DNA of 36,363 nt from Sulfurimonas sp. (GTDB lineage Bacteria > Campylobacterota > Campylobacteria > Campylobacterales > Sulfurimonadaceae): the NCBI GenBank assembly GCA_002899765.1, contig PPDH01000037.1:1-36363 (forward strand), given 5' to 3'. A program made the position numbers and the translations under genes. Under the pieces are notes generated by a model. The model worked only from the letters and a program-made list of their open reading frames with translations. It ran no database searches and was not told where the DNA came from. Of this stretch, positions 16,598 to 35,835 are shown in pieces (position 1 is the stretch's first letter; every line of letters begins with the position of its first letter).

Positions 16598-17880
16598 AAC
16601 TCATCCCAAGACTTTATCTTGTGCCATCTTAGAGCGTAGAGGAGTATAAATAGATAGCAGATTATCCCCATGAGATAAGTTGACTGCATATCTCCGCTTA
16701 CATGTGATATCTTTCCAAATATAAGCGGAATTATGGCTCCACCCGCTATCGCCATGATTAAAAGAGCACTTCCCTGTGCAGTGTGTTTCCCCAAGCCTTC
16801 CAATGCAAGCGGCCAGATTGTCGGCCACACAAGTGCATTTGCAAATCCTAAAAACGCTACAAACGTTACCGTATTTGGAAGAGTTCTTATGCCGCTCCAT
16901 CCCCATAAAATCTCTGAAATCCCATGACTTTGTGATGAAGCCACTACTCCGAACAAAAAGAGTATTCCAAAAAGTGCGGAACCTACGAGCGCACGTTCTT
17001 GCGAGAGATATTTCGGTATGAGTGCAATACCAAGCGCATAACCAAGCACCATAAAAAACATTACATAAGAGGTTAAAGAGGTAACATTTACTAAACCTAA
17101 ATGCTGCCCGTAAAGTCCGATAGTGTCTCCTGCTATTACCTCTATGCCGACATAGAAAAAGAGCGCGGCTGCACCCAAAACTACGCGCGGAAATGCAAAG
17201 ATACTCTTCTTTTGCTCCCCTGCTTCATCTTTTTCAAACTCAAGTTCTGGAAGTTTAGAAAACTTTACAAGAGCGATAAGAGAACTAAGCAATAGTGCCA
17301 TAACGATGTAAGGAACTATAAGTTTTGAAGCCAGCTCCTCTTTTGACTCTGCTGAGAGATTCTACAAAGAGCCGAAGCCTGAGAGTATAAAAGCAGTAAA
17401 AAGAAGAGGCGCAATAACTCCAGCTCCCTTGTTTATAAGCCCCATGATGCTTATACGCATAGCCGCACTCTCAATGGATCCTATGCAGACTATGTAGGGA
17501 TTGGAAGCGGTCTGCAAGATGGTAAGACCGGAGCCAAGTGCGAAAAGAGCTAGCAAAAAAAGTATAAAACTTTCCCTCTGAGCCGCGGGTATAAAAAGCA
17601 GGCTTCCCACTGCCATTATCGCCAAGCCGAGTGCCATTGAGTTTTTATATCCTATTTTCTCGATCACGTAAGACATAGGCAGAGCCATTACGGTATAGGC
17701 TATGTAAAACACAAAAGTTACAAAAAGCGCTTCAAACTCGTTAAGGTCGCAGATGGCTTTTAAAAACGGGATAAGCGAACCGTTGAGCCATGTTACAAAG
17801 CCGAAAATAAAAAAGAGAACTCCTATGATTGTCATAGGGATAAGTACAGGAGTGTTCAATGTTTTAAAACTCTTAAACAT
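16594..17880 (-). pseudogene. FucP/GluP-type sugar:H+ symporter, interrupted by in-frame TAG
   Basis: Two consecutive segments in the same frame make one 428-codon major-facilitator protein with about 12 transmembrane helices. The N-terminal half (IGVLFFIFGFVTWLNGSLIP, GYKNSMALG, QTASNPY) is typical of FucP/GluP glucose-galactose carriers. Codon 173 (17362-17364) is TAG, between GFGSL and NLSAES in the periplasmic loop where the family is most variable. The frame is open on both sides and no base is missing. The start is ATG 17880, which overlaps the HAD gene by eight bases. Whether the stop is real, a sequencing error, or read through cannot be told here. If real, only about five helices would be made. 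Confidence 0.85.
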
Positions 17881-18700
17881 TTTTGAGACCCTTAAGATAG
17901 TTCGCAACTGCGTCTTCATCGTTTGTGTGCGGCAGAACTATTTTTGCCGCTTTTTTTACGCCCTCTTGCGCATTTGCCACCGCAATGGATGTTCCTGCTA
18001 ACTCAAACATACCGATATCGTTAAAGTTGTCTCCAAAAACACTCAATCTCTTTAGATCAAAATCTATTGCTTCGCTTACACTTCTTATGCCGTGGGATTT
18101 ATCCGCATCTTTGTGAAGCAGCGTCAAAAAGTAGCAGCCCACGTAAGCTTCGGGAGCCAAAATATACTTTAGCCTGTCTCTAAAAACTCCCTTAAGATGC
18201 GATGCTACTCTTCTAAGAAGCTCCTCCTCGCCAAAATAGACTATCTTAAAATTGTCACTCATTGCGCGGAGATTTTTCTCTTGATGATGATGCTCATCTT
18301 TTTTGTAGTTTTTAAGAATCTTTGTTTGATATGCGTTTAAAACCGTAGAGTATGAGAAAGCTTCGCTCAGGTTTTTGTCCGCTAGCGAGAGGATAAAAGG
18401 ATAAATGCCAAACTTTGCGCCCTCGTCTACAACCGCATCGCCGACCTCTTTGTCTATAAATTTTGTGTCGATTATTTTTTTCTCCATGGTAGCTATCAAT
18501 GCACCGTCAAGCAGTATCATCGGAGCGTTGACATATACATCTTTTAAAAACTGCGCCGTCTTTTTATATGTTCTTGCAGTTGCGATGCTAAGAACGGAGT
18601 CGCTTGAAAAACCGTTCCATATCTCTTTTGTAAAAGGGCTTACAGACAAATCAGTTCGCAAAAAAGTGTGATCTAAATCCGTAATATAAGCATTTTTCAT
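17873..18700 (-). CDS. HAD-superfamily phosphatase, Cof type
   Basis: This 275-residue haloacid-dehalogenase-fold hydrolase has motif I DLDHTF (Asp8 and Asp10), a Thr/Arg motif II (SIATARTYKK) and motif IV FGDNFNDIGMF near the C-terminus. A large type II cap lies in between. Family members remove phosphate from sugar phosphates and related small molecules. It begins six bases after the antiporter gene and overlaps the sugar transporter by eight bases. It could act on a hexose phosphate. Another idea is that it supplies the MurNAc-6-phosphate phosphatase step missing from the nearby recycling operon, although it is not of the MupP subgroup. Confidence 0.85.
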   Translation of the reverse strand: MKNAYITDLDHTFLRTDLSVSPFTKEIWNGFSSDSVLSIATARTYKKTAQFLKDVYVNAPMILLDGALIATMEKKIIDTKFIDKEVGDAVVDEGAKFGIYPFILSLADKNLSEAFSYSTVLNAYQTKILKNYKKDEHHHQEKNLRAMSDNFKIVYFGEEELLRRVASHLKGVFRDRLKYILAPEAYVGCYFLTLLHKDADKSHGIRSVSEAIDFDLKRLSVFGDNFNDIGMFELAGTSIAVANAQEGVKKAAKIVLPHTNDEDAVANYLKGLKNV

Positions 18701-18706
18701 CTTGTT

Positions 18707-20311
18707 TTAGTATCTCATATGGCATGAGCTCATTTTTTCTACAAGCAGGCGCCCTACTTCAACTTTTGTATCGACTATGGAAGTAATATCGAGATCTTGA
18801 AGATTCTCTTTATCTTCAAGCGTAGCAACTTTTACTATAAGATTAATATCTTTTGTGTGCTTCAGAACTGCCTCGCAAATCGCTCTTTTTTTCTCAATAT
18901 TGTCAAGCGTCACTATGATTGCCGCCGAACTCTCCGCATGAAGTGCTTCTAAAAGTGAAAGCTTTGACATGTCTCCTAAATATGCCTCTTTTCCGGCTGA
19001 CAACGCTTCATGAACATGCTTAGGATTGTTATCGATTATGACATACGGAGCACCTAGATTATCAAGATTTTTAGCAACAAACTTACCGATAATACTATAT
19101 CCGCAAACGATTACATGGTTCTCTCTGGATATAAATGCAGAGGTGTCAAGTCCCAGATATTGATGATGACTCACATAACTTACAAACCTGTTGATTTTTT
19201 AGATAAAAAACGGAGTAACTATCATGGAAAATATAACTACGAGAACAAAAAGAGACTCAAGCTCCTTTTCCAAAAGACCGCCCATGCTCGCAACTGCGAA
19301 GATAACAAAAGAGAACTCTCCAACTTGCGAGATTGCAAGTGCAGTTTTTAAAGAGAGTACATGTGAAGATGTGATGCGAACGACAAGATAAGTAATGATT
19401 GTTTTTAAAATCAAAACAAGCAAGAAGATACTGACGATGAGTCCGATATTGTCGATAAAAAAGACAACGTCTATCTTCATACCCACAACAATAAAAAATG
19501 TCCCAAGAAGTATATCTTTAAACGGCGCAATGTCCGATTCTACTTTATGATGGTACTTTGTCTCGGCTATAATCATACCCGCTACAAAAGCTCCTAGAGA
19601 GTATGTAAAGCCCATGTAAGAAGCTAAAAGTGCGGCAGAGACAACGATAAAAAGAACTGAGCCCATAAAAAGCTCATCAACCTCGCTGGATGCCGAGAAG
19701 TGCAGAAGCCATGTCATAACTCTTTTTCCCACGATAAACATAAAACCGATAACAAAAACGGCACTTATAAAAGTATCTCTAAGTATCTCGGGAACAGACT
19801 GGTCGCCGTTGCTTGTTAAAAATCCCAAAAGTATAAGTATCGGGATGACGGCGATATCTTGAAATATCAGTATCCCCGTCGCACGCTGTCCGTAAGGGTT
19901 GTGTATCTCTTTTGAACTCTTTAAGTAGCTAAGAACCACGGCAGTGGATGAGAGCGCAAAAGCAAGCGAGAGAATAAGAGCAGAAGTCTACTCCAGCGAA
20001 AAGAGATAGTGGCTTATACCATAAACCACCAAAGCGGTAAATCCAACCTGTAAAAAGCCGTTAAAAAATATCTCTTTTCTCATGCTGTTCATCTTAGCCA
20101 AGGATATCTCAAGACCTATTGTAAACATCAAAAACACTATACCGAATTCGCCTATGTGTTCAAGAGTTGCCGAGTCGTTCATGTATCTTAAATCAAGCGC
20201 ATAAACCATTATAGTACCGGTAAGTATATAGCCTATTATCTGTGAAATACCAAATCGTTTTAAAATTAGATTTAATACCGTTGAAACACCTAGTGCCATA
20301 ACAATATACAA
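18707..20311 (-). pseudogene. CPA2-family cation:proton antiporter (Kef-like), two in-frame stops
   Basis: Three same-frame segments make a 534-codon Kef-type protein: a Na/H-exchanger membrane domain (IGYILTGTIM, FLMFTIGLEISL, FALSSTAVVLSYL, TGILIFQDIAVIPIL, TYSLGAFVAGMIIAETKYHH) and a C-terminal TrkA-N Rossmann domain (HVIVCGYSIIGKFVAKNL). Codon 108 is TAG (19988-19990), between SLE and TSALIL; codon 371 is TAA (19199-19201), between PFFI and KINRF. No frameshift is needed at either. The start is unclear: TTG 20311 has no ribosome site, and an upstream TTG-AAA-GAC-TTT lies one base out of frame at a TTTT run near 20325, hinting at an indel. Confidence 0.85.
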
Positions 20312-20455
20312 GAGTGCTGAATCAATAAAAGTCTTTCAAATCTTAATTTTAAGGGTTTTTAAGATAGCCCTTAAAGTGACGCTATTATAGCAAAAGAAAC
20401 TTTGTGCTTGATGTTTTTAAAAAAATCATATACTTAATTTTAAGAGACTCTGTAC

Positions 20456-20461
20456 TATAAT
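20456..20461 (+). promoter_or_regulatory. pyrG -10 box
   Basis: TATAAT at 20456-20461 lies 32 bases before the pyrG ATG; a TTTTGGAG ribosome site follows at about 20478-20485. The -35 region is AT-rich without a clear box. Confidence 0.55.
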
Positions 20462-20493
20462 CGCGACTATGTTTAATATTTTGGAGCTATTTT

Positions 20494-22122
20494 ATGACTA
20501 AATATATTTTTGTTACCGGTGGAGTTTTAAGTTCTCTTGGAAAAGGGATAACCGCAGCCAGCATAGGCACACTCTTAAAACATGCCGGCATACAAGTCGG
20601 AATGCTAAAGATAGATCCATACATCAATGTTGACCCCGGAACCATGAGCCCACTTGAACATGGCGAAGTTTTTGTTACCAAAGACGGAGCAGAGACCGAT
20701 TTGGATATCGGAAACTATGAAAGGTTTTTGGATACCTCATATCTCAAATCAAGCAACTTTACTACAGGTCAGGTATACTCTGCCGTTATTGAGAGAGAGC
20801 GTGCGGGCGGCTATCTTGGGCAGACTATTCAGGTCATTCCACACATCGTCGGTGAGATTGTAAAACGCATAAAAGAGGCAGGGGAAGGTCATGAAATTCT
20901 CATAGTTGAACTTGGCGGAACGGTAGGAGACATTGAGGGTCTTCCGTTTATGGAGGCAATCCGTCAAATGAAGCATGACGAAGAGGTTGAAGGAACATTT
21001 TTTGTCCACGTTACTCTCATCCCGTTCATAAAAGCTGCAGGCGAACTAAAATCAAAACCCACACAACACTCTGTTCAAGAGCTTCGCCGTATCGGCATAA
21101 CTCCGCAGATGATAATTGCCAGAAGTGAAAATGCACTCCCAAAAACATTTAAGAAAAAGCTTGCCATGAGCTGTGATGTTTCCGCAGACAGCGTTGTAGA
21201 AGCACTTGACGCAGCTTCTATCTATGATGTTCCAATCTCATTTCTAAGACAAAATATCTTAAAACCGATATCAAAAGAGCTGGACCTAGGCGAGCTAAAT
21301 CCTGACATGGAAAGATGGGACTCTCTTGTAAAAAAGATAGTTCAACCAAAAAACCGCATAGTCTTAGGATTTGTCGGAAAATATCTTGAGCTTAAAGAGT
21401 CTTACAAATCTTTAACGGAATCTCTTATTCATGCAGGTGCGCATCTTGACACACGCGTGGATATTCACTGGGTTGACAGCGAAGAGGTTGAGACAAGGGG
21501 CACGGAAGCGCTTCTGGGCGATTGCGACTCCATCTTGGTTGCAGGCGGATTTGGAAATCGTGGAGTTGAAGGCAAAATAAAAGCTATAGAGTACGCGCGC
21601 GTAAACAAAATTCCATATCTTGGTATCTGTCTTGGCATGCAGCTCACACTTGTAGAGTATGCGAGAAACGTACTCGGTTTAGAGGGTGCAAACTCCGTAG
21701 AGTTTGATGAAAATACACCTTACCCTATGATTTATCTTATAGACAATTTTATGGATCAAAGCGGAAATACGCAACTTAGAACACATAAATCTCCAATGGG
21801 AGGAACACTCCGCCTTGGAGAGTATCCATGTGACACCAAAGAGGGTTCTATCATCCGTAAAGCTTACGGCGGCGCAAAAACAATTTTTGAGAGACACCGC
21901 CACAGATATGAGGCAAACCCTGTTTACAGAGCGCAGCTTGAAGATGCGGGTATGATTGTTACAGGAGAGTCAAACGGGCTTATAGAAGCGGTTGAGATAA
22001 AAGATCATCCATGGTTTTTAGGAGTTCAGTTTCACCCTGAGTTTACCTCAAGACTTCAAACTCCGAACCCTTCAATTCTTGCATTTGTAGAGGCAACTCT
22101 AAATATTTCACAACAAAAATAA
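20494..22122 (+). CDS. pyrG: CTP synthase
   Basis: This 542-residue two-domain enzyme has an N-terminal synthase domain with [16 protein letters not shown] (3-18), [10 protein letters not shown] and [17 protein letters not shown]. The C-terminal class I glutaminase domain carries the nucleophile Cys in [10 protein letters not shown] and the His/Glu pair in QFHPEF. It makes CTP from UTP with glutamine as amino donor. It is 12 bases upstream of recJ and probably cotranscribed. The frame is intact with every key motif present. Confidence 0.98.
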
Positions 22123-22134
22123 CTACACTGCATT

Positions 22135-23757
22135 ATGCATGTATTTCTAAAGAAACTTCGTTTTGATGATGTACCTATACTAAACAAAACAGCTCTTTTT
22201 GAGCTGCTCTCTCAACGATTTGACAATCAAGAAAAAACGCTTTCACAAATTCCAAATCCAAATCTTCTCCATGATGCTCCAAAAGCAGCCAAAAAGATAG
22301 CAGATGCCATAAAAGAGAAGAAAAAGATAACCCTTGTAGGCGACTATGACGTCGACGGCATTAGCTCAACCGCAATAATGGTCGATTTTTTCAGACAGAT
22401 TCCATACCCGCTTCAAACAATCATTCCAAACCGTTTTAGCGACGGTTACGGAGTGAGCCCAAATATTTTAAAAAGAGTAGATGCGGACATTGTTATAACG
22501 GCAGACAACGGCATAACCGCTACAGAAGCTGCCGAGATTTGTAAAGAGCGGGGCATAGAACTCATCATTACAGACCACCACACTCCGCTAGAGATGCTTC
22601 CCCAAGCGTACGCCATAGTAAATCCGAAGCTCTCAAAATGCGACTATCCATTCAAAGATATTTGCGGAGCACAGGTTGCATGGCTGCTGCTTGGACTTGT
22701 GAAAAAAGAGTTAAATCTCTCAATCGATATGAAAAAGTTTTTAGATATTTTATGTATTGCCATAATCGCCGACATAATGCCCTTAACAGATATAAATAGA
22801 GCGCTTGTCAAAGAAGGGTTAAAGGTTTTGATGCACTCGCAAAGACCCTCATCCATCATAATAAGAGATTTTTTAAACAAAAATTCTCTTACTTCAGAAG
22901 ATATAGGATTTCAAATCGCACCCCGCATAAACTCTGCAGGAAGACTTGAAGATGCAAGTATTGCGTTAGAGTTTTTAACCGCCACAACTACAAATAAAGC
23001 CTACACGCAGTTTGAAAAGCTCAACTCTCTTAATGAACAAAGAAAAGATTTAGAAGCACAAACAACAAAAATAGCCATAGATACCGTACAAAACCTAGAA
23101 GAACTCCCAAATATCATAGTCGTTTGCGGTGAAGATTGGCATGAGGGAGTAGTCGGGATAGTCGCATCAAGATTGGTAAATCATTTTGAGAGACCCGCTA
23201 TTGTGCTAAGCATAAAAGAGGGCACAGCAAAAGGGAGTGCTAGAAGTCTGGGAAATATTGATATATACAAACTCATAAAAGAAAATGCTCACTATCTGCA
23301 AAGATTCGGCGGACATAAAATGGCAGCGGGCTTAGGGCTTGATGAGGGTAATATTGAAGCCTTTAGCAGAGCTATAAACGAGTCGGCTTCAGGATTAACA
23401 TGTAAGGATTTTATACCATCAGAGGATATTCTGGGTATTTTAGATACACATGATATTGATTTTGAACTTCTTGAAATGCTTGAGAGTTTCGAGCCTTACG
23501 GAGAGGCAAATCTGCGCCCCAAATTTTTACTCAAAGATGCACACATCATGGAGATAAAGTATATAGGCAGTAACAAATCTCACTCTAAGATAACCATTAA
23601 GCAACATCTACATGAAAGAAAAACTATAGAACTCATAGCATTTAGAAATATTGTTGAAATGCCTAGTGATAAAAAAATTACATGCAAATATACAATCTCA
23701 AAAAATGAGTTTAATTCTAAAGTCTCAATACAATTTCTATTAAATAAAATTTATTAA
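22135..23757 (+). CDS. recJ: Single-stranded-DNA-specific exonuclease RecJ
   Basis: This 540-residue DHH-family nuclease has GDYDVDGISST (69-79), ADNGITATE and the signature TDHHTP with metal-binding Asp and His. DHHA1-type motifs occur later (RINSAGRLEDA; RFGGHKMAAGL). RecJ degrades single-stranded DNA 5' to 3' in recombination and mismatch repair. It follows pyrG by 12 bases. The length is usual for the family, and the C-terminal OB-fold-like region appears complete. Confidence 0.95.
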   Translation: MHVFLKKLRFDDVPILNKTALFELLSQRFDNQEKTLSQIPNPNLLHDAPKAAKKIADAIKEKKKITLVGDYDVDGISSTAIMVDFFRQIPYPLQTIIPNRFSDGYGVSPNILKRVDADIVITADNGITATEAAEICKERGIELIITDHHTPLEMLPQAYAIVNPKLSKCDYPFKDICGAQVAWLLLGLVKKELNLSIDMKKFLDILCIAIIADIMPLTDINRALVKEGLKVLMHSQRPSSIIIRDFLNKNSLTSEDIGFQIAPRINSAGRLEDASIALEFLTATTTNKAYTQFEKLNSLNEQRKDLEAQTTKIAIDTVQNLEELPNIIVVCGEDWHEGVVGIVASRLVNHFERPAIVLSIKEGTAKGSARSLGNIDIYKLIKENAHYLQRFGGHKMAAGLGLDEGNIEAFSRAINESASGLTCKDFIPSEDILGILDTHDIDFELLEMLESFEPYGEANLRPKFLLKDAHIMEIKYIGSNKSHSKITIKQHLHERKTIELIAFRNIVEMPSDKKITCKYTISKNEFNSKVSIQFLLNKIY

Positions 23758-23891
23758 TACTATAGAACTTGATTTGTATTTGTAATACGAATATGCCTTA
23801 TTATGCAAGCTATTACTTTTCTTTATATTTTGGAAATTTTTCTTTATAAAACCAATATTTAAAAATCTACTAAGCTTTAAAATTGTAACAT

Positions 23892-23905: not shown

Positions 23906-23920
23906 CACTAAGGGGTTTCC

Positions 23921-25423
23921 ATGAAGAAAATAGTTACACTCTCAGCCATCGCTTTTTTGAGTACAGCGGCTTTTGCAGAGACGGATGTTCAAAAGCAGAT
24001 AGACGAACTTAAACAAAAAATAGAGCGTTTGCAACAAATCAACGACAAACAAGACGATAGAATTTCAAGCGTCAATGCCTTGGCAGCACAAGACAATCTT
24101 AAGTTTGATGTTGATTTCAGAACAGCGTACGACAATCTTCGCTATAAAACTGTAAGCGGAGAAACATATGAAAACGATGCGCTTTACACAAACCGTTTAT
24201 GGTTAGGTATGGGTTATGCGCCGACTAAAGATATGCTTTTTAGAGGTCAACTCTCTTTCAATAAAGCTTTTGGCGCAAGCTACGGACAAAGAGCAACAGG
24301 CTTTGGTTTTGATACTTTTGACTGGGTTTTAAATGAGAACCTGACAGACGATACTATAAAGCTAAGAGAAGCATACTGGTTATGGAATCTTAGAACCGGT
24401 ACAGTTGCTTGGACAGCAAGTGTAGGTCGCCGCCCTGCAACAAATGGATATCTTGTAAACTTAAGAGATGACGACAAAGCGAAATCTCCAATGGGCCACA
24501 TTATCAACATGGAATTTGACGGCGCTTCCGTTGCGATGAAACTAGACCATTATGTGCCAGGTATGTACTTTAAATTATGTCTTGGTCGTGGATTGACAAA
24601 TGCAACAGGTTGGGCAAGTGAAGCGACACAAGCTGTTGGAGCTCCTGTCGGTGGTTCAAGTCTTCCAAATTATGTTGAAGATGACAGCAATTTAGACAAT
24701 GTGGATATGGCAGGTTTAATCTTCCAGCCTTACGATGATGGGCAATATGCCGTAATGACTAAGTTTTATAGGGGCTACAATGTTCCGGGTATGTATTTAA
24801 GCGATATGGATTTCGGTACAGGGGCAAGAACATACACTATGCAAAGTGCAGGAGACATGGACGGTGCGGCAATCTCTTTCAAAATGGACGGAGTGGGTGA
24901 CGAGATTAACGATTTCTTAGATGAAACTATACTTTTTGCTTCACTAGCTTGGTCAAAATCTAGAACATCGGATGTATCTATAAGCAGAACTGCAAATGCT
25001 CAAATGGCACTTAGCATGATGGGGATGGATGCAGACAGCATGATGGGAAGTGACGAAGATAAATCAGGTACGTCTATCTGGATTGGCGCACAAATGCCAA
25101 ACTTAACAGGCGGTAAATTTGGTTTAGAGTATAACCACGGTTCAAAATATTGGAGACCGTTTACTTACGGTGAAGACACTATGATAGGTTCTAAACTAGC
25201 GGCTCGCGGGGATGCTTATGAAGCATATTGGACACAGCCTATTATTGATGATGTATTTTCTATGCAAGTAAGATACACATATATATAGTATGACTATACC
25301 GGTTCAAACGGTTTCTTTGGAGACGGCGGAGCACCTTTTAGCATGTCAGAAGCGGTTGCACTAGGGATGGATCCAGTTGAGACTGCACAAGATATACGCG
25401 TATACTTCAGATACAGATACTAA
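23921..25423 (+). pseudogene. DUF3373-type porin-like outer-membrane protein, in-frame TAG near the C-terminus
   Basis: The frame encodes a Sec signal (about 1-19, AAFA), a short coiled coil (about 22-52, QIDELKQKIERLQQIND) and a beta-rich barrel-like region with FRTAYDNLRYKT, GRRPATNGYLVNLRDDD and GHIINMEFDGASV, matching DUF3373 proteins of Campylobacterota. Codon 456 (25286-25288) is TAG. The same frame then continues for 44 codons through YDYTGSNGFFGDGG to DIRVYFRYRY and TAA at 25421-25423. The downstream paralogue aligns RYTYAQHDYT with RYTYI-stop-YDYT and ends in SYRY. Termination at the TAG would remove the last strands and the terminal aromatic needed for barrel assembly. Confidence 0.85.
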
Positions 25424-25425
25424 AA

Positions 25426-25452
25426 ATTAAAGAGCTTTTTTAGCTCTTTAAT
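25426..25452 (+). terminator. Terminator after the first porin gene
   Basis: ATTAAAGAGCT and AGCTCTTTAAT form a perfect 11-bp stem with a five-T loop, three bases after the full-length stop at 25421-25423. This placement supports 25423, not 25288, as the natural gene end. The region after it (25453-25722) is AT-rich with no gene that I can see. Confidence 0.75.
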
Positions 25453-25722
25453 AAACTTTTCCTCTAAATTTTCCTCTTTTTTATTTTTTTCCAAATAAAT
25501 TTTTCTTTTTATTAAAAAAATAATCTCTATTTTATAGCTTTGATTTTTATTGTTGAAATAAAAAGCTCTTCACCTTCTTAAGTCCTCTGTTTATAGTCCA
25601 ATTAGAGATTTTTGATAAATAGATTCCAATGGCTGCTTTATTAGAAAAATTTAATTAAAAAATATTTATTTATGATGTGTACTTATAATAAAAAATTGTT
25701 TTTATAATAATTAAAAAATTTG

Positions 25723-25731
25723 TGTTAGAAT
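25723..25731 (+). promoter_or_regulatory. Extended -10 promoter for the second porin gene
   Basis: TGT followed by TAGAAT (25726-25731) forms an extended -10 box about 30 bases before ATG 25762. No -35 box is clear. Confidence 0.45.
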
Positions 25732-25761
25732 TTGCCTCTAAAAAACACTAAGAGGTTTAAA

Positions 25762-27141
25762 ATGAAAAAATTAGTAGCACTCTCAAGTATCGCTTTTTTA
25801 AGCACTATGGCTTTTGCAAATACTGATATGCAAAATGAGATAAATTTACTTAAAAAAGAGGTTCAAGAGCTTAAAAAGCAGCATGACTCCACCACAAAAA
25901 CTCTTACGGATGTAAAAATCAGTACCAATAACGACAATATAAAATTTGGGATAGATTTTAGAAATGCAATCGATGTTTTAGAGTATAAAAACAATGAAAC
26001 GGGAGAGACTGCAAGAAATCACTCGCTTCTATCAAGCAGACTATACTTGAATATGGTAGCTTCTCCAATGAAAGGATTGTCCTTTAGAGGAAAACTCGCC
26101 GTTTATTCTACATGGGGAGCACATCTTTATGTAAATGACGACCCGTTAAAAGATTGGTCTGCAAGCTCAAAACCTGCAGATACAGTTGTGCGTCTTAAAG
26201 AGGGCTACTTTGTCTACTCCAACAAAATAGGCGAACAGCCAATCGCTCTAAGTATAGGTAGAAGACCTTCAAGTACAGGCTTCTTAGCAAGTATGAGAGA
26301 AAATGAATCAGATGAAGGTTCTCCTCTTGCACATATAACAAACATGGAAGTAAACGGAGCCATGGTAAAACTTGATTTCAGCCGTTATATTCCAGGTGCA
26401 TATGTAAAACTGGTTTACGGAAGAGCACATACAGGCGAGATGGAAAATGTTTACGGAACAGGTCATGCGAATGTCATTCCTTATGCAGATATAGATACAG
26501 CGGCTGAAGATGAAAATGTGGACTTTTTTGTAGTACCGGGTGACGCGTACAATGACGGACAGTACCAGCTTATGTATCAATGGGCGCATATCTTTGACAC
26601 AAAGGGGAAAAATACAGCGACGGGTATAACAAAAGGAGCAGCGGGAACTGCCGATCTATTTGCACTTTCACTTAAAGTAAACGGTATCGGTGAGGAGATT
26701 AGCGACTTCTTGGATGATACTGTAGCTTTTGCTTCTATTGCTTCTACATACTATGATGCTAAAGACGGGCATACCCTTTTAAGTTCAGCAGATGGAGGAA
26801 CTTCAAAAGGTCACTCGTTTTGGATTGGCGCACTTATCCCCGATATGATTACAGATTCTGGAAAATTCGGTTTTGAATACAACTACGGTTCTAAAAACTG
26901 GACACCTATGACATGGGCAGAAGATACGGCAATAGGCTCCAAAATAGCTGTTCGCGGAAGTGCTTATGAAGCATATTGGAATTTTAATCTTTTTGGTATA
27001 AAGTATCTACCGTCTCAAGTAAGATATACATACGCACAACATGACTATACGCCAAATGCAAATTGCAGCGGCTGGACTGTACCTAATCCTGTTGACATCA
27101 CTGCACAAGATTTAAGATTTTTTATTAGTTACAGATACTAA
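25762..27141 (+). CDS. DUF3373-type porin-like outer-membrane protein (intact paralogue)
   Basis: The product of about 459 residues is paralogous to the preceding gene. It has a Sec signal (MKKLVALSSIAFLSTMAFA), a short coiled coil of Lys/Glu heptads (residues about 23-50), then a beta-barrel-like region with GRRPSSTGFLASMREN and HITNMEVNGAMVKLDFSRY, ending SYRY. ATG 25762 is chosen because AGAGG (25751-25755) precedes it and a normal signal peptide follows. An upstream start at 25732 would put ten extra residues ahead of the signal. The function is unknown; a substrate-specific porin is the usual guess for this family. It has its own promoter and terminator. Confidence 0.85.
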   Translation: MKKLVALSSIAFLSTMAFANTDMQNEINLLKKEVQELKKQHDSTTKTLTDVKISTNNDNIKFGIDFRNAIDVLEYKNNETGETARNHSLLSSRLYLNMVASPMKGLSFRGKLAVYSTWGAHLYVNDDPLKDWSASSKPADTVVRLKEGYFVYSNKIGEQPIALSIGRRPSSTGFLASMRENESDEGSPLAHITNMEVNGAMVKLDFSRYIPGAYVKLVYGRAHTGEMENVYGTGHANVIPYADIDTAAEDENVDFFVVPGDAYNDGQYQLMYQWAHIFDTKGKNTATGITKGAAGTADLFALSLKVNGIGEEISDFLDDTVAFASIASTYYDAKDGHTLLSSADGGTSKGHSFWIGALIPDMITDSGKFGFEYNYGSKNWTPMTWAEDTAIGSKIAVRGSAYEAYWNFNLFGIKYLPSQVRYTYAQHDYTPNANCSGWTVPNPVDITAQDLRFFISYRY

Positions 27142-27142
27142 G

Positions 27143-27446: not shown

Positions 27447-27449
27447 GTG

Positions 27450-27533: not shown

Positions 27534-29002
27534 AAAAGAATAAAATCCTAGAAGAGATTTTAAACGAAGTTGATAAGCATCCTGAGATTATGTCTCGTCG
27601 TGAAGCTTTAAAATATTTAACAATGTCTCCATTGGCAGCTTCTGTACTTGCAGGTGCAACTGTTGGAGCTACAACTGCAAGTGCATCAAGCAGTGCTAAG
27701 GGGAGAGTAGTTATCGTTGGTGGCGGTCTTGCAGGTATGAGTACGGCAGCTCTTTTAAAAAATACCGCATCTGATCTTGATATCACTGTTATTGAGCCGG
27801 ATCCTACATCTGTTTCTTACCAACCGGGTCAAACTCTTGTTGCTGCAGGTGTTTGGGATAAAGAAGACATTATCTACAAAAGAGATGATTTTGTTCCAAG
27901 CGGCGTAAAGCTTATAAAAGGGGCAGTAACCGGTTTTGATCCTGAGAACAACAAAGTTATTGTAGATGGAGCTCAAGAAGTTTCATACGATCAAATGGTT
28001 GTAGCAACAGGTCTTATGCTTAACTACGGGGGAATCAAAGGTCTAGATGGCGTTATCACATCATCTGGTGCAGACAATGCAGTCGTAAGACAAAAAATCG
28101 GTAAAAACGGTACTCACTCAATTTACTTCCGTGATGGAGCAGTAGATACTTGGAAAGGTATCCAAGAATTAATTGCAAAAGCAAAAGCTCATAAAGGTCC
28201 AGAAAAACTTCAAGCTCTTTACAGCATGCCAAACACTGCTATTAAATGTGGTGGTGCTCCGATGAAAATCATGTACTTAACGCATGCTCACCTAGAAAAA
28301 GCGGGCGTTGCAGACAAAGTAGAGCTTACTTTTAATACAAACGGTGGAGCACTTTTTGGTATCAAAGAGTACAATGCGGTTATCGTAAAACAATTTGAAA
28401 AAAGAGGTTTCGTATGGAACTTTGCTCATAACTTAGTTGAGATAGACACAGAAGCTAAAGTTGCAATTTTCGATAAGCACTGGAAAGAAAAAGGTGCATA
28501 TGATGAAGATTTAGATGAGTACACAATGGTTACTAAACATGAGTACAAAGAGTATAAATACGACTTTATCCATGTTACTCCTCCAATGAAAGCTCCTGAT
28601 GAAGTTGCAAAATCTGCGGTAGGTTCAGGACAAGGCTGGGTACCTGTTGAAAAAGAGACTCTACAACATGTTAAATACAAAAATGTATGGTCTTTAGGAG
28701 ATGTTGCTGCTGTACCTATGGGTAAAACAGGTGGTTCTGCTCGTAAACAATATAGAGTACTAGTAGAAAATATGGTAGCTTCAATGGAAGGCAAACCATT
28801 GGCATCTAAATATGGCGGATATACTGTTTGTCCACTTATAACAGGTCTTGGAACTGTTATGCTAGCTGAATTTGACTGGAGTAAAAAACCGACTCCTTCA
28901 TTCCCACTTGACCCAACTCAAGAGAGATGGATTTGGTGGTTATTAAAAGTTTACGCTCTTAAACCTATGACTATCTACGGTATGTTATCAGGTAAAGCGT
29001 AA
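27530..29002 (+). CDS. sqr: Sulfide:quinone oxidoreductase, Tat-exported
   Basis: This 490-residue flavoprotein has a twin-arginine signal (SRREALKYLTM, 22-32, then a hydrophobic Ala-rich stretch). It has the FAD-binding VIVGGGLAGMST (61-72), a second FAD contact VWSLGDVAAVP (386-396) and two cysteines placed as in the redox-active pair of sulfide:quinone reductases (Cys240 in IKCGGAP and Cys434 in YTVCPLI). The C-terminal WIWWLLKVYALKPM is an amphipathic membrane anchor. It oxidises sulfide at the periplasmic face and reduces quinone. The SQR subtype cannot be fixed by eye; flavocytochrome c sulfide dehydrogenase is the main alternative, but the anchor favours SQR. Confidence 0.9.
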   Translation: MKKNKILEEILNEVDKHPEIMSRREALKYLTMSPLAASVLAGATVGATTASASSSAKGRVVIVGGGLAGMSTAALLKNTASDLDITVIEPDPTSVSYQPGQTLVAAGVWDKEDIIYKRDDFVPSGVKLIKGAVTGFDPENNKVIVDGAQEVSYDQMVVATGLMLNYGGIKGLDGVITSSGADNAVVRQKIGKNGTHSIYFRDGAVDTWKGIQELIAKAKAHKGPEKLQALYSMPNTAIKCGGAPMKIMYLTHAHLEKAGVADKVELTFNTNGGALFGIKEYNAVIVKQFEKRGFVWNFAHNLVEIDTEAKVAIFDKHWKEKGAYDEDLDEYTMVTKHEYKEYKYDFIHVTPPMKAPDEVAKSAVGSGQGWVPVEKETLQHVKYKNVWSLGDVAAVPMGKTGGSARKQYRVLVENMVASMEGKPLASKYGGYTVCPLITGLGTVMLAEFDWSKKPTPSFPLDPTQERWIWWLLKVYALKPMTIYGMLSGKA

Positions 29003-29024
29003 TTTTAACTCGCACTTAACCTCT

Positions 29025-29049
29025 GCCGCAAAGGATTTTTCTTTGCGGC
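29025..29049 (+). terminator. GC-rich hairpin after sqr
   Basis: GCCGCAAAG (29025-29033) pairs perfectly with CTTTGCGGC (29041-29049) around a seven-base loop, 22 bases after the sqr stop. The tail is TCTTC rather than a clean U-run, so termination is probable but not certain. Confidence 0.55.
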
Positions 29050-29178
29050 TCTTCAAAATATGCTTTATATAAACATACAAAACGTTACACTTTTCCATAA
29101 ACATTATATATTAATTTTATAATAAATATTATTTTTATTTTTTATAAGTTAAAATGCTACAAATTAAAAGGAGATACA

Positions 29179-29502
29179 ATGAACAAAATTGTAAAAATTG
29201 CATTAGGTGCAGCTTTAATATTAAGTGTCGGTGCATCAACTGCAAGTGCAGACGCTAATAAAGGTCAAAAACTTTTTGCTAAGAAATTAAAAGATGCATG
29301 TGGTATGACTGGTGCTGCAATGGCTGGAAAACATACTCAAGGCGAGTGGGAAGATTTACATAAAAATGGCAAGCTTGCTCAAGAAATTAAAACTATTTGC
29401 CCATCAGTTAAAGATGACGATGTAGCAGATAAATATCTTGAACACTATTTTGATTTCTTTCACAAATTTGGAAGTGACAGCGGGAATGTTCCTGCTTGCT
29501 AA
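29179..29502 (+). CDS. Small exported three-cysteine protein (often called cytochrome-like)
   Basis: The 107-residue precursor has a Sec signal cleaved after ASA (about residue 24). The mature part has GQKLFAKKLKDACGMTGAAMAGKHTQGEW, three cysteines (41, 74 and the C-terminal residue 107) and a SGNVPAC end. Its start resembles class I cytochromes (GQKLF...C..), yet there is no CxxCH haem site, so calling it a cytochrome is not supported. A strong AAAAGGAG site precedes ATG 29179. It sits between sqr and a SoxH-like hydrolase, each separated by terminators. A periplasmic role in sulfur handling is plausible from context only. Confidence 0.8.
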   Translation: MNKIVKIALGAALILSVGASTASADANKGQKLFAKKLKDACGMTGAAMAGKHTQGEWEDLHKNGKLAQEIKTICPSVKDDDVADKYLEHYFDFFHKFGSDSGNVPAC

Positions 29503-29514
29503 TTAATTTTAGCT

Positions 29515-29547
29515 TCACTCTTTGCAAATGCAAGGAGTGAGTTTTTT
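29515..29547 (+). terminator. Intrinsic terminator after the three-cysteine gene
   Basis: TCACTCTTTGC (29515-29525) pairs with GCAAGGAGTGA (29530-29540), with one G-T wobble and an AAAT loop, followed by GTTTTTT. This is a classic Rho-independent terminator 12 bases after the stop. Confidence 0.85.
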
Positions 29548-29624
29548 ATACTCACTTTATTATTTTACCCTCATTTTTTATTTACATTTTTAACTTTTTC
29601 TTATATTATTAACTCTACATCAAG

Positions 29625-29668
29625 TATAATGCCCCCTCAATAAAGAGACTTTAATTATAAAAAAGTCT
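29625..29668 (+). promoter_or_regulatory. Promoter -10 and 5' hairpin for the second hydrolase gene
   Basis: TATAAT (29625-29630) lies 57 bases before the ATG. The leader contains AGACTTT (29646-29652) and AAAGTCT (29662-29668), a 7-bp stem with a nine-base loop, just before an AAGGAG ribosome site. The hairpin may affect message stability; no regulator is identified. Confidence 0.4.
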
Positions 29669-29687
29669 AATCAAACAAGGAGTTACA

Positions 29688-30662
29688 ATGAAAAAAGCTA
29701 TATTTCTAGCTTCTGCAGTTATGTTGTTTTCACTATCGCTAAATGCCTTCACATTGGGTAAACTCGGTGATTTCAAATTTGAAAAAGTAAATCAAAATGT
29801 CTACGTCATGCATGGTCCTGAAAAAGAACCAAGCAAAGAGAATGAAGGTTTTATGAATAACCCCGCAGTTATAGAGAGCCAAAACGGACTTATCGTAATA
29901 GATCCGGGCGGAAATTATAAAGTAGGCAAAAAAATTCTCTTAGAGATTGAAAAAATAAGCAAAAAACCTATTATTGCCGTCTTTAATACACACAAGCATG
30001 GTGACCACTGGTTCGCAAATAAAAACATCAAAGAAAAATACCCTGAAGTACCAATCTATGCATTAACCTACATGATTGAGCAAGTTAAAGACAATGCAGC
30101 TGAGACTTGGTACGGCATCTTAGATAGACTCACGGGAAATCTAGAGGGAACGAAGCCGTTTACATTTCCGAGTCAAGGTATTGAAAATAAACAGACGGTT
30201 GTGGTTGACGGGCAAACATTTATCATGCGCCATTATGCAAAAGGGCATACCGACACTGATATACTCATCGAACACACAAACTCTAATACACTTTTTATCG
30301 GGGATAATCTTATAACAAACCGTTTTGGAGCGTTTGATGAGTCATCAAGTATTATTGAAAACATAAAAGTACTTGAAAAGATTAAAAATCAAGAAGACGG
30401 TTTTAAGAAATATGCACTCTATGTTCCGGGGCACGGACCTTCAAATAGTGAGATAAGCAAAATTATAGACCCTTTCTTGAACTATCTAAAAATTGTTTTA
30501 GCAGGTGCAAAAAAAGCATATGAAAATGATATGGCAAGCTATGAGATTAAACCTGAAGTACATGAACAGTTAAAAGCGTATCACTCATGGGATGCTTATG
30601 AGGGTCAAATGGGCAAACATTTGATGAAAGCTTACTCAGAAATAGAGATGCTCAACTTCTAA
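29688..30662 (+). CDS. Periplasmic metallo-beta-lactamase-fold hydrolase (SoxH-like)
   Basis: This 324-residue protein has a Sec signal (about 1-20, SLNA) and the complete MBL metal set: THKHGDHW (101-108), AKGHTDTD, FIGDNLI and VPGHGPS. It is a paralogue of the lipoprotein at 1677-2714; both share a P(S/T)KEN-G-M-N block just before the core, but this one has a cleavable signal, not a lipobox. It sits downstream of sqr and the three-cysteine gene with its own promoter. The substrate is unknown; a sulfur compound is inferred from the neighbourhood. ATG 29688 follows AAGGAG. Confidence 0.85.
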   Translation: MKKAIFLASAVMLFSLSLNAFTLGKLGDFKFEKVNQNVYVMHGPEKEPSKENEGFMNNPAVIESQNGLIVIDPGGNYKVGKKILLEIEKISKKPIIAVFNTHKHGDHWFANKNIKEKYPEVPIYALTYMIEQVKDNAAETWYGILDRLTGNLEGTKPFTFPSQGIENKQTVVVDGQTFIMRHYAKGHTDTDILIEHTNSNTLFIGDNLITNRFGAFDESSSIIENIKVLEKIKNQEDGFKKYALYVPGHGPSNSEISKIIDPFLNYLKIVLAGAKKAYENDMASYEIKPEVHEQLKAYHSWDAYEGQMGKHLMKAYSEIEMLNF

Positions 30663-30668
30663 AACAAC

Positions 30669-30690
30669 AGAGCCACATATCCGTGGCTCT
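30669..30690 (+). terminator. Terminator after the second hydrolase gene
   Basis: AGAGCCAC (30669-30676) pairs with GTGGCTCT (30683-30690) around a six-base loop, seven bases after the stop; a short T-run follows at about 30698. Confidence 0.65.
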
Positions 30691-30738
30691 TAAGCACTTT
30701 TTCTTACAAATTTCAGTTCAAATACTATATAATATTTT

Positions 30739-32868
30739 ATGCCTAAAATATATCCATGCCAGAGAGCAAAATCAGATATTACCCAACTAAAAGTATTGAA
30801 CAATTCTCTTGTTGCATACAGTACTAAATATCATGGAATCAAATTATTTGACTTTGATGAGTGCGAAATAAAAAAGAGTATTGCAAATATGTATCTTAAT
30901 GCGGATGTGAACGCTTCTGCATTTAGTCCAAACTCTGAACTTTTTGCCTTTGTAAACAATCGAATAATTTACATCATCGAAATACAATCCAAAGAGATAA
31001 TTCACACCATCGAAGTAAATGATGAAGATATTGAGATACTCAGTTTTGACCCATCTTCAAACTACATAATAGCAGGAAGCAAACGCGGAAGAGTACTCCA
31101 ATACAAAACAAATCAGTCTTCGCTGCTCTCTAGACTCTGCTCTTTTCCCTACGACAGAAAAAGTATCACTAAAGAGAGTGAAAACTACGTAAGCTCTTTT
31201 GCCTTTTATGGCAACAGCTTTGCATGCAGCGGTTATGGCGGGGCTATCTATATTATTGACCTCTATACACAGACAAATAAAAGCATTATCACTTACAATA
31301 AAACCCGTATAAATGCTCTATGTTTTTTAAATGAACAAACGCTCATATGCGCTAAGGACAACGGCAAAGTCGACATTATTTCACTTCTTGATGAAAAGAG
31401 TCACAAAAGCATCGACACACCCATAGCATCAATTGACACCATCATCGTGATGCCTAATCCAAACTATATCATGGTAAGCGGTAATTCAAAAATCATAACC
31501 ATAATTGACGTAAAAAATTACAAGATTACGCATAGCAAATATATCGCTCTTGATATGAGAATAAAATATGTGGATATCGTAAATAGTGATTCACTTGTTA
31601 TCGCCCTTGAAAACAGTGAGATTCTACATGTAGAACTTCCGGGCATTACAAAACTAAAGTCGCTTATTGCTCATAACTCACTTAAGGAAGCTTTTGAACT
31701 CATCAGGAAAGAACCGATGCTTCAAGGTTCACATGAGCACAAAACAGTAGAAGAGAAGTTTGAAAAAAACTATGAAGATGCACTCAAAGCGTTGATAAAC
31801 CAAAACAAAGCTCGTGCTATCGAGATTTTAAATCCATACAAAGATATAAAATCAAAAGAAAACAGAATAAAAGAACTCTTCAGCTCTTTTGAGAATTATC
31901 TTAGATTTCAAGCACTCTTTTTAGAAAAAAGATATGCCTTGGCATATGCCATGTGCTCCAAATATGAACCGTTAAAAAGTACACTGCAGTATAAAAAAAT
32001 GGAACAGGTCTTCAGATTAGCCTTCTCTAACGCTCAAAGACATATACTGCAGAACAATATTGCAGGTGCTAGAGCTCTTCTTGGAGAATACAACACCGTA
32101 ATGGCAAAAAAACCTCTTATAAAACTTTTACTTACTCAAAACAAAGAGTTTGTGGAGCTTTTAAAAGCAGTACAAAAAAAAGACTATAAAAGCATCAATA
32201 ATCTTGTAGAGAAAAATGAACTCTTTAAACAGATACCAAATTATATAGCTCTAAATAAACAGATAGAAGAGACTCTTTTGGAGATAGAAACAGATATAAA
32301 AACCGCTAAAACCGATAAAGCAAAAGAACTTTTGCTTACTCTTAGAGAAATTCCGCATATAGCAAAAAAAGTTGAAGAACTCTATCAAAAAAATAAACAC
32401 ATGCTTTTACTTCTAAAGGTTTATGAAGATAATGATTTTAAGAGTTGTTATGAACTTTTGGATATCTACAAAGATTTGAGAGAGACAGAGCTTGTAGCGC
32501 TTCTTGAAAAACATTGGTTCAGTCTTATGCAAAAATGCGAAGAGTACGCGCTTGAGGGAAATATAAAAGATATCAGAAAAACACTCTCTCAGTTTCTCAC
32601 TTTATCAAGCAGAAGCAATAAAATAGGAGATCTTCTACGAGTCAGTTTTCATGTAAGAATCGATATTTTAATGAGTAAAAATAATTTTAAAGGTGCAGAG
32701 GCTATCATCTACACCTATATAGATATATTCGGTATAGATAGTGAGATAAACCATATTATGAAAAAGTTTGAGAAAATAGCGTTAAAAAAACTCGCCATTA
32801 CACAAATATATAATAGACCGACAAGAGATAGCTGGAGGCAAAGTGATATTATTATGAAGGATTCATAA
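30739..32868 (+). CDS. Large protein with N-terminal beta-propeller and C-terminal helical repeats
   Basis: The first about 310 of 709 residues consist of repeated short beta segments ending in D/N-x-K-type turns (IIYIIEIQSKEIIHTIEV; GGAIYIIDLYTQT; KIITIIDVKNYKI), fitting a WD40-like propeller. From about 320 to 690 it is charged and helical with repeated units (ALINQNKARAIEIL, LFLEKRYALAYAM, NNIAGARALLGEY), resembling TPR-like or solenoid repeats. No signal peptide or membrane segment is seen, so it is probably cytoplasmic and a scaffold. I do not recognise a characterised homologue. Its end overlaps the restored fliI reading frame by 17 bases. Confidence 0.75.
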   Translation: MPKIYPCQRAKSDITQLKVLNNSLVAYSTKYHGIKLFDFDECEIKKSIANMYLNADVNASAFSPNSELFAFVNNRIIYIIEIQSKEIIHTIEVNDEDIEILSFDPSSNYIIAGSKRGRVLQYKTNQSSLLSRLCSFPYDRKSITKESENYVSSFAFYGNSFACSGYGGAIYIIDLYTQTNKSIITYNKTRINALCFLNEQTLICAKDNGKVDIISLLDEKSHKSIDTPIASIDTIIVMPNPNYIMVSGNSKIITIIDVKNYKITHSKYIALDMRIKYVDIVNSDSLVIALENSEILHVELPGITKLKSLIAHNSLKEAFELIRKEPMLQGSHEHKTVEEKFEKNYEDALKALINQNKARAIEILNPYKDIKSKENRIKELFSSFENYLRFQALFLEKRYALAYAMCSKYEPLKSTLQYKKMEQVFRLAFSNAQRHILQNNIAGARALLGEYNTVMAKKPLIKLLLTQNKEFVELLKAVQKKDYKSINNLVEKNELFKQIPNYIALNKQIEETLLEIETDIKTAKTDKAKELLLTLREIPHIAKKVEELYQKNKHMLLLLKVYEDNDFKSCYELLDIYKDLRETELVALLEKHWFSLMQKCEEYALEGNIKDIRKTLSQFLTLSSRSNKIGDLLRVSFHVRIDILMSKNNFKGAEAIIYTYIDIFGIDSEINHIMKKFEKIALKKLAITQIYNRPTRDSWRQSDIIMKDS

Positions 32869-34162
32869 TTTTTAAAAGAGTTTCCACCGTGTCTTTAAAC
32901 TCATTTTTATGCGCAGAGTTTTGGATTAAGAACTTCTCCATCTCACTTTTTTTACTTATTGCTTCATCCAAATCAGGGTCTCCGCCCTTTGTATACGCAC
33001 CTATGCGGATTAACATCTAATTCTCTTTGAGGATGGTGTAAAGTCTTCTAAATTTCAAAACTGCCTTAAGATGTTCCTCTGAAATAATATCGTTAATTAC
33101 CCTAGAAGCTGAATTTAATATATGAACGGGCGGATAGATTCCAAAGTCGGTAAGTTCACGAGAGAGAACTATATGTCCGTCTAAGATAGAGCGGGATTGA
33201 TCGGCAATCGGGTCGCTCATATCATCACCCTCGATAAGAACCGTAAAAAAAGCGGTAATAGAGCCTTTACCATCCTCTTTTCCTGCACGCTCCATCAACT
33301 GAGGAAGAAGCGTCAAAGATGAAGGAGGATAACCTTTTGAAGTCGGCGGTTCGCCAAGAGCAAGCCCTATCTCTCTTTGAGCCATTGCAAATCTCGTCAC
33401 GGAATCCATGATAAACAAAACATCAAGTCCTTGATCTTTAAAAAACTCTGCAACGCTCATAGCAGCAAATGCACCATACTTCCTCATCAAAGGAGAGTCA
33501 TCCGAAGTAGCTACTATTATTACCGTGTTTTCTAAGTTTCCGCCGAGATTTTTTTCAATAAATTCAGGTACTTCCCTGCCCCTCTCACCTATAAGCGCCA
33601 CTACTTTTATGGGTGCATCAGAACCTCTTACTATCATCCCCATAAGTGTTGATTTTCCTACACCGCTTCCTGCAAAGATACCGAGCTTTTGACCTTTTCC
33701 GCAAGTTAGGAGTCCATCGATACTCTTTACGCCTACACTAAAAATCTCATCTATCATGCCACGCTTCATGGCAGCTATCGGCGCTTTAATTATGGGCATA
33801 AGCTTAGAGCCGTTTACAGCTCCTTTGCCGTCAATAGGTCTCATAAACGGGTCTACAACACGCCCGAGTAAAGATGAACCGACAGGGATATTTAAACCCG
33901 TCTGGTCTAAAAAAACTCTATCCCCTGAACAAAACCCCTCCACAAAACTAAACGGAGTGATAAAAAAGGTTGAACCGTCAATCTCTGTAACCATTCCTAT
34001 GGTCTCTTGAGCGGTGTCGTTTGAGATGATTTTTACTATATCGCTGATACTCACTTTTAGTCCGCGGGCAGTAATAACGGTTGCATTTATCTTAACCACT
34101 TCGCCAAAGGATACCGAGTACTTTTTATTTGAGATTTTATCTTTTAGTGAAGAAAAGGGCAT
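32852..34162 (-). pseudogene. fliI: Flagellum-specific ATPase FliI, interrupted by in-frame TAG
   Basis: The frame encodes 436 codons of a FliI/F1-beta-like ATPase. It has the Walker A motif GSGVGKST (165-172), the catalytic Glu region GERGREV, Walker B DVLFIMDSVTRFAMAQREIG and GEPPTSKGYPPS. Codon 382 (33017-33019) is TAG. The same frame then runs on as MLIRIGAYTKGGDPDLDEAI to TAA at 32852-32854; this is unmistakably the FliI C-terminal domain. The stop removes 54 residues that form the C-terminal helices of the hexamer. FliI energises flagellar type III export. AAGGAG precedes ATG 34162. folE lies 27 bases upstream on the same strand. No other flagellar gene is in the window. Confidence 0.9.
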
Positions 34163-34189
34163 TAAAAATCTCCTTGTTTCAAAACGAAC

Positions 34190-34780
34190 CTAATAACGCG
34201 TGCCTGTAGGAGAGTTTATCAAAGAGAAAAACTCGCTTCTTGTTTTTTCATCTTTTTTAAACAGACCGCGCAGAGCCGAAGATGTCGTGGTAGAGTTTAT
34301 TTTCTCAACTCCCCGCATCTCCATGCACATATGACGTGCCTGAATAACAACTGCTACACCTTTTGGCTGAATCTTATCCATAATAGCGTCTGCTATCTGT
34401 TCAGTAAGCTGTTCTTGTATCTGCATACGGCGCGCGAAAACGTTGACAACACGGGGAATTTTCGACAACCCAACAACTTTTCCATCGGGGATATACGCTA
34501 CATGTACGCGCCCGATAATCGGCAGAAGATGATGTTCACATGTAGAGTAAAACTCTATATCTTTTAAGAGAACCATCTCATCGTTTGAGCTTGTAAACAA
34601 CGCTGATTTTAATATCTCTCTTGGGTCTTCTTTATAGCCGCCGAAAATAAACTCATAAGCCTTTTTGACCCTTTGAGGAGTCTTTAAAAGCCCTTCCCTC
34701 TCAGGATTTTCTCCTACATGAAACATCATAGTCTTTACCGCATCTTCAAATGTTGTATCTTTCTTATCGGACAATGTCAT
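34190..34780 (-). CDS. folE: GTP cyclohydrolase I
   Basis: This enzyme of about 196 residues has [20 protein letters not shown] (zinc ligands Cys81 and His84 by this start), [13 protein letters not shown] and [12 protein letters not shown] (third zinc ligand Cys152), all diagnostic of type I FolE. It makes dihydroneopterin triphosphate for folate and related pterins. The frame is open to 34813, but that start lacks a ribosome site. ATG 34780 is given here; a TTG at 34774 has AAAGG at better spacing and would lose two residues. It probably shares a transcript with fliI. Confidence 0.95.
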
Positions 34781-34907
34781 ACCTTTAAAGTTTTTATTAC
34801 GATAGAGTATCAAGAAATAGCTGAGAAAATGATGTGATTAAGCACTTTGAGAATTTTACGTAAAAGTTTCTTTTTTACTTACATGTTATCTTCTTTCTTT
34901 AAGCTGC

Positions 34908-34937
34908 ATTATATTTGTTATGCAGTTTTTTCAACAA
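34908..34937 (-). promoter_or_regulatory. Candidate folE promoter with inverted repeat
   Basis: On the minus strand TTGTTG (34932-34937), an 18-base spacer and TATAAT (34908-34913) form a candidate promoter. CTGCAT (34904-34909) and ATGCAG (34920-34925) form an inverted repeat that overlaps the -10 box, a possible operator. The leader to folE would be about 120 bases. The rest of the 34781-35113 gap is AT-rich with no gene seen. Confidence 0.5.
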
Positions 34938-35113
34938 TTAACTAACGCTTTTGTATGTTATTTCTCTATATAACATTTAACACACACTATATACTTAAGA
35001 ATAGTATATTTTTTTTCTAGTAAAATGAAGAAATAGTGTAATTTGTCGTATTTTTTAATAATTAACACACATTTAAAATCTTAGTTATTTTCGTTTTTTT
35101 AGGTTGATAGGTA

Positions 35114-35119
35114 TATAAT
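35114..35119 (+). promoter_or_regulatory. -10 box for the response-regulator gene
   Basis: TATAAT at 35114-35119 lies 47 bases before the GTG start, after a T-rich stretch (about 35085-35100), the usual form of vegetative promoters in this phylum. Confidence 0.5.
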
Positions 35120-35166
35120 GCATTTGAATGAATAGTTAGTATATAAAAATGCAAAGGATTTTAATA

Positions 35167-35835
35167 GTGTTCAATTTATTTAAAAAACAAACATTCAAAG
35201 ACATTCCAAATATTGATTTAGACCAATTAAAAAAAAGAACTAAAATAGTAGTAATAGACGATGAAGAAGATAGTTTCCCCGTTACATCAATTCAAAATTT
35301 TGGCTTTACAGTCTAATATTGGAATCAATTAGATGCCAATAAATTAAAAAGATTAGAGAACAAAGAATTTGACATTATAATATTGGATATTATTGGTATT
35401 GCTAATACAAATGAACTGGGTCAAATTAATGGTATTGATATTTTAAAAACTCTAAAAAATACAAATCCTAATCAAATTATAATTGCCTTTTCTGGAAGTA
35501 CTTATGATATAAGCAAGGCAGAGTTTTGGAAATTAGCAGATGGGTTTATGAAAAAACCTATTGAACTCTTAAACACAAAAGAAAAATTAGAACAAATTAT
35601 AAAAGACAATTTTTCAAATGAAAGGCTCATAAATGAATTACAAAGTTTAATGAAATTACAAATTGAAAATCAATCTGATTATAAAAAGATAGAAGACTAT
35701 ATTGTAAAAACTGTTAAAAAGCAGAATACCTTAAATTTAGGAAAACTAGTTGCATCTGGTATAACAGATACTTCAGGTGTATTAGCGATTGTAACAAGTT
35801 TAATTACAATTTATGAAAAGTACAATAATGATTGA
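35167..35835 (+). pseudogene. Response regulator receiver protein, interrupted by in-frame TAA
   Basis: The frame from GTG 35167 (AAAGGA at 35153-35158) holds 222 codons. Receiver hallmarks are the acidic pair in VVIDDEED (Asp31, Asp32), the phosphoacceptor Asp74 in IIILDI, a Ser in IIAFSGS (about 109) and the Lys in GFMKKPIE (about 129). Codon 50 (35314-35316) is TAA, between FGFTV and YWNQL, with the frame open on both sides. No DNA-binding domain is evident; a helical tail ends with a hydrophobic stretch (GVLAIVTSLITIY). Translation restarting downstream would lack the acidic pair. It overlaps the next gene by eight bases. Confidence 0.8.

Follow-up and report, generated by a model that had tools for sequence, protein, structure and literature searches.

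In-frame stop codons in conserved genes are known from stop-codon reassignment and nonsense suppression, and pseudogenes hold nonsense codons in otherwise recognisable genes. C>A changes have been described in mutY mutants (PMC10625568), and guanine oxidation has been described as giving C:G>A:T changes on both strands without insertions or deletions (indels), the resulting artefacts appearing in deep data as low-frequency noise in a CpG (NCG:CGN) context (PMC5521083, citing Costello 2013). Here we describe in-frame TAG and TAA codons that interrupt five genes on one contig of a Sulfurimonas assembly (GCA_002899765.1, contig PPDH01000037.1), and related stops elsewhere in the same genome. The window analysed is the entire contig, 36,363 bases long, one of 45 in a genome of 2,390,858 bases (2.39 Mb; completeness 98.5%, contamination 3.1%). 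We consider it probable that these stops are consensus errors of the assembly, with oxidised guanine, fixed by a small number of template molecules, as their likely origin.

A sequence-only reading of the window had listed six such codons, and direct checking confirmed their positions, frames and strands. Synteny with the Sulfurimonas relatives G004 and G011 extends across most of the window, and with G020, G005, G023 and L017 across parts of it; DNA identity over 16594-20400 is 86% to G004 and 85% to G011. At five of the six sites the genes are uninterrupted in syntenic relatives, whose proteins align through the stop in a single frame, as expected from the claim that each frame stays open beyond its stop with no frameshift. 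The relatives' genes run through these sites and do not end at the same points, and alignment to their proteins revealed no frameshift in the interrupted window genes.

A gluP/nagP-like MFS transporter gene (16594-17919, minus strand) is interrupted by TAG at 17362-17364, and the proteins of both G004 and G011 align across this stop with 93% identity; relatives mostly have Glu here (GAG twice and GAA twice, whereas two remoter relatives have CAA and ACA), and the G011 homologue passes TIGR01272 (gluP) and falls under the cut-off of NF046060 (NagP). In a KefC-like monovalent cation antiporter gene (18707-20326, minus strand; product under the curated cut-off) there are two stops, both spanned without gaps by the G004 alignment at 96% identity. 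At the first, TAG at 19988-19990, five relatives have Ser (TCG, TCT or TCC) and one has GTT, and at the second, TAA at 19199-19201, six relatives have Ser (TCA or TCT). The same gene has lost its start codon, with ATT at 20324-20326 where five relatives have ATG, a change missing from the earlier list along with an extra TAA at 9241-9243 in pyrE (8647-9255, plus strand; TIGR01367). The latter lies four codons before the end of the gene, at a Ser codon (TCA or TCT) in four relatives that all continue to codon 202. The gene for the flagellar export ATPase, fliI (32852-34162, minus strand; the G004 protein passes NF006290 FliI), carries TAG at 33017-33019 within an alignment of 94% identity to G004, at a position that is Glu (GAG or GAA) in five relatives.

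A DUF3373 porin-like gene (23921-25423, plus strand), with PF11853 matching both the part 5' of the stop and the G011 protein, carries TAG at 25286-25288 and aligns through it at 78% to G011, which has GAC, and at 83% to L017, which has GAG. This gene is the first of a porin-like pair (23921-27141) that is absent at the locus in G004, G005, G020 and G023, present as a pair in G011 and represented by its first member only in L017, forming a variable island. The remaining stop, TAA at 35314-35316, is in frame by its coordinates within a receiver-like frame (35149-35835, plus strand) whose best matches outside its own genome, among 135 Sulfurimonas genomes searched, are about 35% identical, and in which PF00072 matches weakly, below the Pfam cut-off, after the stop; the frame has no close relative in the genus.

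Wherever a window site could be compared, at least one relative carries a codon that a single G>T or C>A substitution on the coding strand would turn into that of the window. Glu would have become TAG in the gluP-like gene, in fliI and, via L017, in the porin; Ser would have become TAG or TAA at the two kef sites and in pyrE; and ATG would have become ATT at the kef start. The sequence-only reading had proposed Glu, Gln or Lys as ancestral residues, which is borne out for Glu, whereas the two kef sites are mainly Ser in relatives. Because a single class of substitution ran through the window sites, the test was extended genome-wide.

Stretches amounting to 1,015,393 bases (about 43% of the genome) were taken, within which 332 genes (312,135 bases) could be aligned with proteins of G004 or G011. 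A stop was counted where 12 residues were aligned on each side with at least half identical, a filter that excluded C2:40904 (Gly to TGA), C2:38732 and C2:52710; the pyrE stop, the kef start change and the receiver codon also stand outside the total. The count came to 27 internal stops, one per 11.6 kb of aligned coding DNA, spread evenly over contigs (p 0.39), and the whole sampled genome is affected. TAG, TAA and TGA were all present, TGA in 6 of the 27, which confines the earlier statement that no in-frame TGA is seen to the window. In the reverse direction, 297,415 bases of G004 and 718,000 bases of G011 gave 2 flagged stops in 249 genes and 6 in 339, against 19 and 27 expected at the rate of the present genome, and from their alignments we judged these to be start extensions or shadow open reading frames (ORFs) at low identity, none of them genuine. 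Frameshifts were flagged in 2 of the 332 genes, one of which was also flagged in G004; we judged both to be start-site or short-ORF effects and not convincing.

With the class of each change judged from the codons for the residue of the best-matching relative, only G>T or C>A (together G:C>T:A) fits 24 of the 27 stops, and at most 26. The ambiguous sites are a Cys site, which either G:C>T:A or T>A fits, and the porin site, which is Asp in G011 and fits G:C>T:A via L017. Opportunity alone would give this class a share of 32% (binomial p 6.6e-11, 25 of the 27 stops tested). On the coding strand there are 20 G>T and 6 C>A changes, compared with expectations of about 18 and 8, given 8959 and 3680 opportunities, respectively. 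TAG and TAA have each replaced Glu and Ser, and TGA has replaced Gly and Cys.

These replacements bear on whether suppressor tRNAs or a changed code could read through the stops. The frames are open and conserved past the stops, which would suit such reading, but all three stops are involved, several residues (Glu, Ser, Gly and Cys) are replaced, and TAG, TAA and TGA all still end genes. The search for stop-reading anticodons that the sequence-only reading had proposed found none among the 40 tRNA genes detected, a set that is incomplete, with no tRNA-Ala or tRNA-Ile(GAT) gene in the list; 23S rRNA was likewise not found in the genome. That reading had thought wholesale reassignment unlikely, and among ORFs of at least 250 residues TAG is the terminator of 126 of 510 here, much as in G004 (40 of 153) and G011 (85 of 382). 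Recoding and suppression were rejected on these grounds, and we give them practically no credence. Among the tRNA genes, the tRNA-Glu at G000:C5:4263-4335 scored 44.9 bits compared with 55.3 for two others, and tRNA-Glu occurs in two distinct sequences, one of which differs from that of G011 by a single C>A change, of the same class as the stops, a sample too small to weigh.

The distribution of the stops is blind to selection. When the genes were divided into thirds by conservation, the stops numbered 11 in 4224 opportunities, 7 in 4223 and 9 in 4192 from the least to the most conserved (2.6, 1.7 and 2.1 per thousand). Elongation factor EF-G and lysyl-tRNA synthetase (LysS), the two genes for which single-copy status was established, each have one full-length copy in the genome, and each copy has a stop; among the full-length EF-G matches listed from 135 Sulfurimonas genomes, only that of this genome is interrupted. 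Stops were also found in the replicative helicase DnaB, GlmU, AroB, RuvA, aminopeptidase N and ThiG, as well as in an LptF-like gene below its family cut-off; the names LptF-like, Lon-like, PycB-like and KefC-like all denote matches below curated cut-offs. EF-G, LysS, DnaB and GlmU are generally essential proteins. Truncated EF-G, LysS and DnaB would be impossible in growing cells, and therefore it is the sequence, not the organism, that appears to be at fault. Three options had been offered from the window alone: consensus error, genuine nonsense mutation and a suppressor tRNA. The first is supported; the second fails as a general cause, given EF-G, LysS and a rate that is flat over conservation, and the third finds no support in the 40 tRNA genes detected or in the four residues replaced over three stops.

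The same evidence bears on gene decay, in which the stops would mark pseudogenes of a lineage losing motility and transport. fliI, kef, the gluP-like gene and the porin could be dispensable, and as in pseudogenes the nonsense codons lie in recognisable genes. However, the window genes have no frameshift, the gluP-like gene, kef and fliI remain 93-96% identical to G004 around their stops, the changes belong to one substitution class, and housekeeping genes are interrupted elsewhere in the genome. Decay was rejected on the housekeeping genes and the lack of convincing indels, and we hold it to be extremely unlikely.

Radical missense changes in conserved surroundings included 19 of class G:C>T:A here, compared with 7 in G004 and 5 in G011, while the other classes together numbered 16 here, 13 in G004 and 28 in G011; the G:C>T:A excess is significant with stops left aside (p 0.003), and simple arithmetic on the counts puts the missense excess at about 28, compared with about 34 expected. 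The direction asymmetry of pairwise differences is blurred by base-composition drift.

A natural hypermutator, in which 8-oxoguanine drives G:C>T:A changes that truly occur in the cells, would account for the substitution class. Taking a match of E 1e-53 or better as MutY-grade, a dividing line of our own choosing, we found none in this genome, in its eight nearest relatives or in G004 and G011; 71 of 135 Sulfurimonas genomes have such a match, only 4 of them passing the curated cut-off, and MutM was found in 0 of 12 genomes. The C>A class and the missing MutY are shared with mutY (GO-system) hypermutators (PMC10625568). The clade is thus without the usual 8-oxoguanine repair pair, but repair loss is clade-wide and the stops are confined to one assembly: G004 and G011 also lack MutY, yet have no stops judged genuine. 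Moreover, stops are no rarer in conserved genes, and they interrupt EF-G and LysS, of which the genome has a single full-length copy apiece, although selection would be expected to remove such changes. We therefore rejected real hypermutation, which we regard as quite improbable. The genome also encodes an endonuclease III-grade match (G000:C25:56707-57243) and a further HhH-GPD protein (G000:C29:81531-82004).

Sequence context was examined around the changes. The base 3' of the affected one is A at 20 sites, G at 5, T at 0 and C at 1, compared with 18.6, 4.0, 2.7 and 0.7 expected, a distribution largely forced by the codons; the comparison relates to the mutY-type C>A contexts CpCpN and TpCpN (G followed by G or A). 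If guanines modified at particular motifs were misread as T by the polymerase used in sequencing, G>T errors would enter the consensus whatever the depth, but no motif common to 28 aligned sites was visible by eye beyond the bases imposed by the codons, and the 5' base is as expected. Motif-specific modification was rejected on both counts, and its probability seems to us very close to nil.

The explanation that we favour is consensus error from oxidised guanine, with 8-oxoguanine read as T. Under it, about 2 in 1000 of the G:C pairs present in the living genome would appear as T:A in the assembly, creating a false stop where the error hits a Glu, Ser, Gly or Cys codon that permits one. The error could reach the consensus if few template molecules lay behind the reads, as might happen if depth was low, if amplification was heavy or if the library resembled one made from a single cell. 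The pattern resembles 8-oxoguanine sequencing artefacts (PMC5521083) in its C:G>A:T changes on both strands and its freedom from indels, and differs in reaching the consensus and in having no CpG context.

Several observations weigh against this explanation. One of the 27 stops (C29:85510, a Gln site) lies outside the class and fits C>T instead. The CpG (NCG:CGN) context was not enriched, with C on the 5' side at 3 of the 20 G>T sites and 3.1 expected, a test that addresses shearing damage and not every oxidation; its absence may mean that the sample DNA itself was oxidised. A repeat of about 193 bases, described below, showed 0 such changes in the 1320 G/C site-copies of its 20 copies, where 2.8 were expected, a result that is not decisive because assemblers pool repeats. 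A strict count restricted to the window, of G:C>T:A differences at codon positions 1 and 2, gave 27 here, 15 in G004, 22 in G011 and 35 in G020, which is little missense excess; the objection that this is too few for a random process was removed by the wider data. The contigs, up to 232 kb long, argue against simple low depth and make amplification of a small number of molecules the more probable route. Finally, the consensus-error explanation was reached from the assembled sequence alone.

What the data show is a pattern blind to selection; the chemistry is inferred, and the published shearing context was not seen, which would suit another technical cause, such as an error of assembly, polishing or platform that favours G>T and C>A and involves no oxidised guanine. 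We know of no sequencing platform with such a consensus profile. Guanine oxidation yields almost exclusively G:C>T:A changes and no indels (PMC5521083), as seen here, and we consider a cause of this other kind unlikely. A further variant, which strikes us as highly improbable, is that the errors reflect genuine 8-oxoguanine lesions present in a single wild cell or a few, from a clade without MutY and MutM, fixed by single-cell-like amplification; if it were true, the assembly would by accident chart the standing guanine oxidation of a marine bacterium poor in repair.

The stops are thus most likely technical and not a real biological feature, and though the mechanism is ordinary, the case is unusually clear given how complete the genome is. 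Extrapolation to the whole genome, assuming about 90% coding, gives about 190 interrupted genes. Such stops invite misreading as pseudogenes, lost motility or recoding despite good quality scores. The combination of one substitution class, a rate flat over conservation, interrupted housekeeping genes and no indels suggests a cheap screen for damaged assemblies. Among open-licence papers searched by title and the start of the abstract, none reported that G:C>T:A errors had put false stops into the consensus of a bacterial assembly, and such a report may exist.

The repeat of about 193 bases mentioned above has inverted ends and was found at G000:C4:4320-4512 and in 19 further, nearly identical copies in the sampled contigs, with an N or a length difference in its T-rich middle; it looks like a miniature transposable element. 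The last 97 bases of the window (36265-36361) are identical to the ends of C2, C34, C21 and C26, and by eye they contain sequence resembling an inverted end of this repeat. At the opposite end, positions 1-46 hold what, judging from a primer site, looks like a 16S rRNA 5' end, with the gene on the minus strand.

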